A stretch of 64,000 bases of DNA from Candidatus Aenigmatarchaeota archaeon (GTDB taxonomy: Archaea; Aenigmatarchaeota; Aenigmatarchaeia; QMZP01; QMZT01), in NCBI GenBank assembly GCA_016932735.1, contig JAFGCI010000002.1:1-64000 (forward strand). The letters are read 5' to 3'. A model generated the notes under the pieces. It ran no database searches. It was not told the origin of the DNA and was given only the letters and a program-made list of their open reading frames with translations. The position numbers and the translations under genes were made by a program. Each line of letters opens with the position of its first letter. The stretch's first letter is position 1. Below, one piece after another: positions 14,225-60,640 of this stretch.

Positions 14225-14299
14225 ATTTTACTCATGACTGTAAAATTTAAAAAACCGGCATCATCCATCCTTTTTATTCTGTCCTGATAACTTAATTAC

Positions 14300-14366
14300 G
14301 GGCAATGAAGAGATTACCGCTCCAGTATGACCGAAAGGAGTGATTACAGTGGTAGCTCCTGAGCCC
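14300..14366 (+). ncRNA. Candidate C/D box small RNA (2'-O-methylation guide)
   Basis: A 67-base segment has the C/D layout: terminal stem GGGC/GCCC, box C-like ATGAAGA (one mismatch to RTGATGA), D' CCGA, a six-base spacer, C'-like GTGATTA, a 12-base guide, and a perfect box D CTGA just before the closing stem. A T-rich tail follows. The C to D' interval (about 19) is longer than usual, while the C' to D interval is canonical. It fills the gap between two minus-strand genes. In archaea such RNAs guide fibrillarin to rRNA or tRNA; I cannot assign the target. Confidence 0.5.
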
Positions 14367-14370
14367 TTTC

Positions 14371-49659: not shown

Positions 49660-49711
49660 ATATCCAAATGAGTGCCGGGATCGCATAACCTGGTAGTGCG
49701 CAGGACTGGAA

Positions 49712-49742
49712 AATCCGAAGATTTTGTTTCGGGATTCCCGCA
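49712..49742 (+). other. tRNA-Ser intron 1, canonical position 37/38
   Basis: 31 bases. CTGG (32-35) can pair with CCCG before the 3' exon with one mismatch, and AATCC with GGATT, giving a relaxed bulge-helix-bulge. Cutting between 37 and 38 leaves loop CTGGAAA. Confidence 0.8.
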
Positions 49743-49774
49743 ATCCTGTTTCCGAAAGGATATCTGGGTTCAAA

Positions 49775-49851
49775 TAAGCCCTTCTTTCTAAAGAAAGAAG
49801 CCCTTAAGGGGAAGAAAAGAGATTTCAAATAAAATGAAAAGGTTTTGAGAT
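49775..49851 (+). other. tRNA-Ser intron 2, in the T loop (59/60)
   Basis: 77 bases. The junctions form a full bulge-helix-bulge: CTGGG/CCCAG outer helix, 3-base bulge ATT, 4-bp TTCA/TGAG (one G-U), 3-base bulge AAT, then AAGCC/GGTTT. Cutting after the second base of each bulge restores the T loop exactly. The interior has an 8-bp CTTCTTTC/GAAAGAAG hairpin. Confidence 0.85.
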
Positions 49852-49884
49852 TCCCAGTCCCGGCGCTTCTTATTTTTAATATTA

Positions 49885-60399: not shown

Positions 60400-60467
60400 G
60401 ATAAATCCTCAATAAAATTAATTTCTATTCTAATCATTAAATTGTTTTTTAGATGGGCCCGAAGGGA

Positions 60468-60533
60468 ATTTCTCGGAAATTGTTTGCATACGCAAACAAA
60501 AGCTCATTTACACTCATTTCGCGTAAATGCCGG
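60468..60533 (-). other. tRNA-Arg intron 2, in the T loop (59/60)
   Basis: 66 bases. AGGGG/CCCTT outer helix, bulge ATT, TTC/GAA plus a G-A mismatch, bulge AAC, then CGG/CCG form a bulge-helix-bulge. Cutting after the second bulge base on each side restores TTCGAAT. The interior has CATTTAC/GTAAATG and GTTTGC/GCAAAC hairpins. Confidence 0.82.
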
Positions 60534-60555
60534 TTCGAACCCCTGATCTCTCGGT

Positions 60556-60600
60556 TTCCTCTGAGATATAATCTCAGCCAATTCGTATGGTTAAAAATAA
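60556..60600 (-). other. tRNA-Arg intron 1, canonical position 37/38
   Basis: 45 bases. CTTC (32-35) pairs with GAGG before the 3' exon; bulges are GGT and AAA. The interior has a 6-bp CTGAGA/TCTCAG hairpin. Splicing gives loop CTTCGGA. Confidence 0.83.
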
Positions 60601-60640
60601 CCGAAGCCGAGCGCCTTATCCAAACTAGGCTACAGGCCCA

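Follow-up and report, generated by a model that had tools for sequence, protein, structure and literature searches.

Portable introns at tRNA position 59/60 probably use the T loop as half of their splice site in an Aenigmatarchaeota archaeon

Transposition of tRNA introns is known in the Thermoproteales (Fujishima 2010, as described in PMC4033280, PMC4090602 and PMC8450103), bulge-helix-bulge (BHB) splice sites are transplantable, and 59/60 is among the known intron positions (PMC4090602). The maximum reported in the tRNAscan-SE 2.0 survey is that of Pyrobaculum calidifontis, with 71 introns in 46 genes and at most three per gene (PMC8450103). Multiple tRNA introns are also known in ARMAN-1 and ARMAN-2 (PMC4033280), alanine mutants of the catalytic Y/H/K or of the Y/K of the ARMAN-specific loop of the splicing endonuclease gave no cleavage (PMC12397907), and loop-bearing endonucleases and tRNA introns were earlier proposed to have co-evolved (PMC6379350). 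Here we analysed a window, namely the whole 64,000-nt stretch at positions 1 to 64,000 of contig JAFGCI010000002.1 of a Candidatus Aenigmatarchaeota archaeon (GCA_016932735.1), together with the remainder of its genome and those of its relatives. We assign a probability of about 0.9 to the reading that its tRNA genes carry portable 59/60 introns that would use the T loop as half of their splice site and would have been copied among tRNAs.

The tRNA-Arg(TCG) gene of the window occupies 60454-60639 on the minus strand and was identified with a cloverleaf finder, a shuffle control, ARAGORN on the spliced form and R1, a covariance model of the T arm and its intron, which matched at 60462-60544 (E 3.3e-7). 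Direct reading on this strand places exon 1 (positions 1-37) at 60601-60639, exon 2 (positions 38-59, with the 3' end TTCGAA, T54-A59) at 60534-60555 and exon 3 (T60, the 3' strands of the T stem and of the acceptor stem, and A73) at 60454-60467. The stems are GGGCCTG/CGGGCCC (acceptor), CTCGG/CCGAG (anticodon) and AGGGG/CCCTT (T), and the D arm reads TAGCCTAGTTTGGATAAGGCG. The gene is interrupted by a 45-nt intron at 37/38 (60556-60600, minus strand) and by a 66-nt intron in the T loop at 59/60 (60468-60533, minus strand; direct reading and intron parse), as a preliminary description of this DNA had proposed. The first intron forms its central helix from C32-C35 with GAGG and has the 3' bulge AA|A. 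The second has the intron helix CGG/CCG, the 5' bulge AA|C, the 3' bulge AT|T and a central helix of TTCG with AGAA in which three of the four pairs form, the other being a G57.A mismatch; with both bulges of 3 nt, it appears to be a slightly relaxed example of the 59/60 BHB. An uninterrupted tRNA-Arg(TCG) from G017, a genome of the same order, has the anticodon loop CTTCGGA and the T loop TTCGAAT, both equal to the Arg loops after predicted splicing. No relatives of the two Arg(TCG) introns were found among the parsed introns or in intron-sequence searches.

The second tRNA gene of the window, tRNA-Ser(GGA), lies at 49674-49865 on the plus strand (cloverleaf finder, shuffle control, R1 with E 2.8e-10, ARAGORN on the spliced form) and shares the double-intron plan, with 31 nt at 37/38 (49712-49742, plus strand; cloverleaf finder) and 77 nt at 59/60 (49775-49851, plus strand; intron parse). 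The central helix of its T-loop intron pairs TTCA with TGAG between the bulges AA|T and AT|T, so that the 3' bulge is indeed the same in both genes, as previously claimed. When aligned, the Arg and Ser T-loop introns proved unrelated in sequence, the latter belonging by sequence relatedness with the T-loop intron family of the His, Gly and Leu genes described below. ARAGORN and Rfam at gathering scores each detected 0 tRNAs in the window, and R1 found exactly two matches, in Arg(TCG) and Ser(GGA), both of which are in its training set. ARAGORN called the spliced sequences Arg(tcg) and Ser(gga). In the shuffle control of 60 strands (3.84 Mb), no candidate scored 17 or more, the real genes scoring 21.9 and 22.8. 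In the rest of the 91%-complete genome we found no uninterrupted copy of either gene. Group I introns were considered and rejected, the window introns measuring 31-77 nt against a core of a few hundred nt and having no Rfam match; split or permuted tRNAs were likewise rejected, both genes being contiguous and in normal order. The window also holds, at 14298-14368 on the plus strand, a sub-threshold match to a C/D-box snoRNA (sR44, E 0.016), possibly an archaeal C/D sRNA.

The genome assembly (1.18 Mb, 11 contigs) revealed how common such genes are. The Rfam tRNA model reported nine tRNAs above its cut-off and one just below, i.e. 10 genes at E 0.001 versus at least 38 present. The census, a lower bound owing to its targeted nature, combined the reading of weak Rfam matches, R1 searches and searches with intron and tRNA sequences; a T-loop pattern scan on its own was discarded as too noisy (140 places versus 126 in the reversed control). 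An automatic cloverleaf search gave 33 genes, every spliced product of which was accepted by ARAGORN, and five further genes were read by eye, namely Leu(TAA) (L083), Leu(CAA) (L087), Lys(CTT) (L285), an Ile gene (L077) and a Leu gene in L018. A T-loop intron is present in 28 of the approximately 38 genes and only six have no intron at all; together the genes hold about 65 introns, or 1.7 per gene, those of the D loop, anticodon loop and variable arm being likewise abundant. Among the 28 genes, about 11 also have a 37/38 intron and about 10 have a D-loop intron instead. T-loop introns are thus not limited to the two genes of the window, and the lineage-wide habit suspected in the preliminary description was borne out by this count and by R1 matches in 26 of 31 genomes sampled from the order, including the present one. 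Its proposal of the 37/38 plus 59/60 pair as the general plan has to be corrected, this being only one of several layouts, with D loop plus 59/60 about equally common. The borders of D-loop introns are approximate by 1-3 nt, and the anticodons of the second gene of L010 (read AAG), of L018 and of L086 are uncertain; L086 was automatically read as TCA but is more probably Gly(TCC), interrupted near 29/30. The tRNA-Leu(TAA) gene L083 (contig C3 of this genome, G000, minus strand) reads best as containing four introns, in the D loop, at 37/38, in the variable arm and at 59/60; its predicted spliced form is called Leu(taa) by ARAGORN, and the restored variable arm, TAGCTTAGTGCTTTC, equals that of the Leu gene L010 of the same genome. 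We also observed that the four tRNA genes Val(GAC), Ala(TGC), Ser(CGA) and Ala(CGC) (L001, L017, L019 and L264) are each preceded, at a distance of about 45-60 nt, by a 28-nt hairpin (CCCGC...ATAT...GCGGG), with one more copy at L273; the hairpin may be a regulatory element or a repeat.

In order to examine the splice site, we turned to 117 introns at 59/60, parsed in 41 genomes by a scan that used only the T stem, the acceptor stem and the D arm as landmarks. T54-T55-C56-R57 was fully paired with intron positions -6 to -3 in 104 of the 117, forming a 4-bp helix, a count to be read knowing that R1, the source of many of the loci, encodes the T54-57 pairs and that matches from relatives are partly selected for pairing, although one mispair would not exclude the best R1 matches because those score 10-20 bits above threshold. 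With the register shifted by 1-4 nt, the same helix was found in 0-3 of the 117. The base opposite position 57 varies with it: in the 96 introns with A57 it is T (89) or G (7), and in the 21 with G57 it is C (9), T (8) or another base (4), so that C occurs in 9/21 with G57 and in 0/96 with A57 (Fisher 4e-8). The bulges are of 3 nt each, A58 A59|N and N N|T60, and an intron helix of at least three pairs stands right behind the 5' bulge in 58 of the 117, versus 0-13 when slid. The T-loop introns therefore display the 3-nt bulges and the 4-bp central helix of a BHB, and their predicted excision gives normal tRNAs, as judged by ARAGORN on the spliced products and by the intron-free G017 homologue.

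Relatives in another gene were detected for 68 of the 117 T-loop introns (blastn E <1e-4 over 60% of the shorter sequence), with 40 pairs lying within one genome. In this genome, the T-loop introns of His(GTG), Gly(CCC), Leu(TAA) and Ser(TGA) form one family with 89-100% identity over 63-64 nt (98% over 63 nt for His and Gly(CCC)), and Thr(GGT) and Ala(CGC) carry members of the His intron family in their D loops. Two different tRNA genes of G090 (L177 and L178) carry an identical 53-nt intron, two of G006 (L151 and L161) an identical 35-nt intron, and a Trp gene of G003 (L109) has one intron family at both 37/38 and 59/60. Near-identical introns in tRNAs of different identity are the mark of translocatable introns, and the earlier suggestion that introns had spread at 59/60 is well supported by them. 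Presence also varies between close relatives, the Ser(GGA) 37/38 intron of G000 being missing from the same gene (L094) of G001, of the same genus, which is a single case. R1, applied more strictly to the phylum sample, matched 31 of 106 genomes. One dispersed repeat, TGTGCACTAANGTGCAATR, has two hairpins and occurs three times inside T-loop introns (C7:199299, C8:73762 and C1:96221 of G000) and four times outside recognised tRNA genes (C3:4516, C3:55556, C11:139398 and C1:96791), the reversed pattern occurring 0 times; this distribution suggests that other repeats also invade T-loop introns.

The genome encodes one splicing endonuclease, EndA (P0001), of 394 aa, of which residues 7-394 align over the full length with residues 10-387 of ARMAN-2 EndA (4fz2; E 5.7e-106). 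Its catalytic Y239/H253/K284 correspond to Y236/H251/K282 of the ARMAN-2 enzyme, and Y158/K159 to Y160/K161 of the ARMAN-specific loop. Judged by its sequence, namely a single chain of about 390 aa organised as alphaN-alpha-betaC with the catalytic and loop residues in place, it is an epsilon2-type endonuclease of broad specificity. Identity is 85% to the protein of a MAG labelled Micrarchaeota and 49-68% to those of genomes labelled Aenigmatarchaeota, and from these relatives the host would be placed as a DPANN archaeon of Aenigmatarchaeota type. Among the 31 genomes of the order sample, R1 matches occur in 25 of the 27 with epsilon2 EndA versus one of the four lacking it (G002, G015, G017 and G029; Fisher p 0.008), an association that is only suggestive because the genomes share ancestry and several of them are fragmented or incomplete. 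G017 had no T-loop intron matches, and the median number of Rfam-detectable tRNAs is 25.5 in genomes lacking the epsilon2 enzyme versus 13 in those with it. A second, small alpha-type EndA (184-265 aa) was noticed in many order-level genomes; it adjoins tRNA genes in G009, G012, G014, G018, G022 and G029 (e.g. G014:C1:4298-4903), most of which also have the epsilon2 form.

We propose that at 59/60 the universal T-loop sequence T54-T55-C56-R57 serves as the exon half of the splice site, for which the 3' end of the intron would supply UGRA as the partner when position 57 is A, and CGRA or UGRA when it is G. Because every tRNA has UUCRA, an intron ending in the complement should be spliceable from almost any tRNA, making the T loop a ready landing site; and since the exon side is the most conserved tRNA loop and the intron provides the other half, the element would be portable. 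Unrelated tRNAs would then have acquired intron copies from one another, with exchange between T and D loops as well, until introns occupied most genes. We infer that the introns are cleaved out and the exons ligated in the cell, that some copying mechanism disperses them, and that permissive splicing, rather than a benefit to the host, accounts for their persistence. A more specific version, which we regard as rather improbable, makes the T-loop introns a small mobile RNA family with a conserved fold that would move among T, D and anticodon loops via the UUCRA half-site and would include a purine third strand. A 5' pyrimidine strand and a purine strand would form a hairpin, along which a second purine strand would run parallel (mirror) as the third strand of a triple helix. 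Within introns, the parallel match averaged 7.2 nt over 29 distinct tracts, versus 5.6 +/- 0.2 for swapped introns (0 of 5000 permutations), the antiparallel match being 6.0 versus 5.4, and the second purine tract varies with the 5' pyrimidine tract at about 25 loci, e.g. L176, L181, L119 and L193. A purine third strand or low-complexity evolution may possibly underlie this tract pattern.

Were the introns functional RNAs under selection, such as stable circular RNAs or guides that direct the modification of tRNA or rRNA, the recurrence across the class of one intron architecture with covarying strands would be accounted for, and archaeal tRNA introns can carry modification guides, e.g. in tRNA-Trp. 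We nevertheless hold this to be unlikely, since Rfam guide families had 0 matches among the introns tested, and the Ser(GGA) intron sequences differ quickly between the close relatives G000 and G001, with patchy intron presence. Protection of the tRNA gene or its T loop, as advanced in the preliminary description, is considerably less probable. The 3' halves of tRNA genes are common integration sites (attB), which an insertion in the T loop would destroy, but the ORFs beside the Arg gene are, by reading, not integrase-like, patterns for two intron families had 0 matches in 2.9 million viral contigs, and introns of the D loop, anticodon loop and variable arm are abundant too. Any effect against viral nucleases would end at splicing because the mature tRNA is unchanged, and the distribution of the introns tracks the type of splicing endonuclease instead, leaving the proposal with no support.

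We consider it very improbable that small repeats have struck decayed tRNA pseudogenes here, the working copies lying elsewhere. Dispersed repeats do sit in some T-loop introns and the completeness of the genome bin is about 91%, but the exon stems are intact, the spliced products score as tRNAs, and the insertions coincide precisely with splice positions, where a BHB and covarying pairs are present. Relatives show the same interruptions and, with only six of the approximately 38 genes intron-free, most amino-acid families would have no working tRNA.

The reading of portable introns that would use the T loop as a half-site bears on practice as well as on evolution. Default gene finders applied to DPANN genomes will lead to wrong tRNA-based completeness checks and codon-supply analyses, and the case points to a route by which introns may flood a genome and conceal its tRNAs from standard finders. 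With relatives that have or lack the introns, and G017 lacking the enzyme, enzyme-intron co-evolution and intron mobility become directly testable. Large-scale tRNA intron gain was previously documented in one archaeal order, and the present case would be a second, phylogenetically distant one in which one site is clearly preferred, and for a simple reason, namely that half of the splice site is the invariant T loop.

As in the Thermoproteales, single tRNAs have multiple BHB introns, non-canonical positions such as 59/60 are used, different tRNAs share similar introns and the endonuclease is of predicted broad specificity; unlike there, the host belongs to the DPANN (Aenigmatarchaeota), the enzyme is of the epsilon2 rather than the (alpha-beta)2 type, and 59/60 is strongly preferred. 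The load of about 65 introns in about 38 genes compares with the 71 in 46 of Pyrobaculum calidifontis, and the probable four introns of L083 with the three or fewer reported per gene (PMC8450103). Caldiarchaeum subterraneum likewise has introns in the D-, V- and T-arms, for which a mobile-element model was put forward, and has 13 of 45 tRNAs disrupted (PMC3293823), versus all but six of about 38 here. With ARMAN-1 and ARMAN-2 (Micrarchaeum) this lineage shares a three-unit epsilon2 EndA with the same catalytic and ARMAN-specific-loop residues (PMC12397907, PMC6379350), whereas the sweep of T-loop introns and these intron families are not described in those two papers. We regard this as a strong case of the known archaeal tRNA-intron proliferation, extended to a new lineage with a different endonuclease and centred on 59/60.
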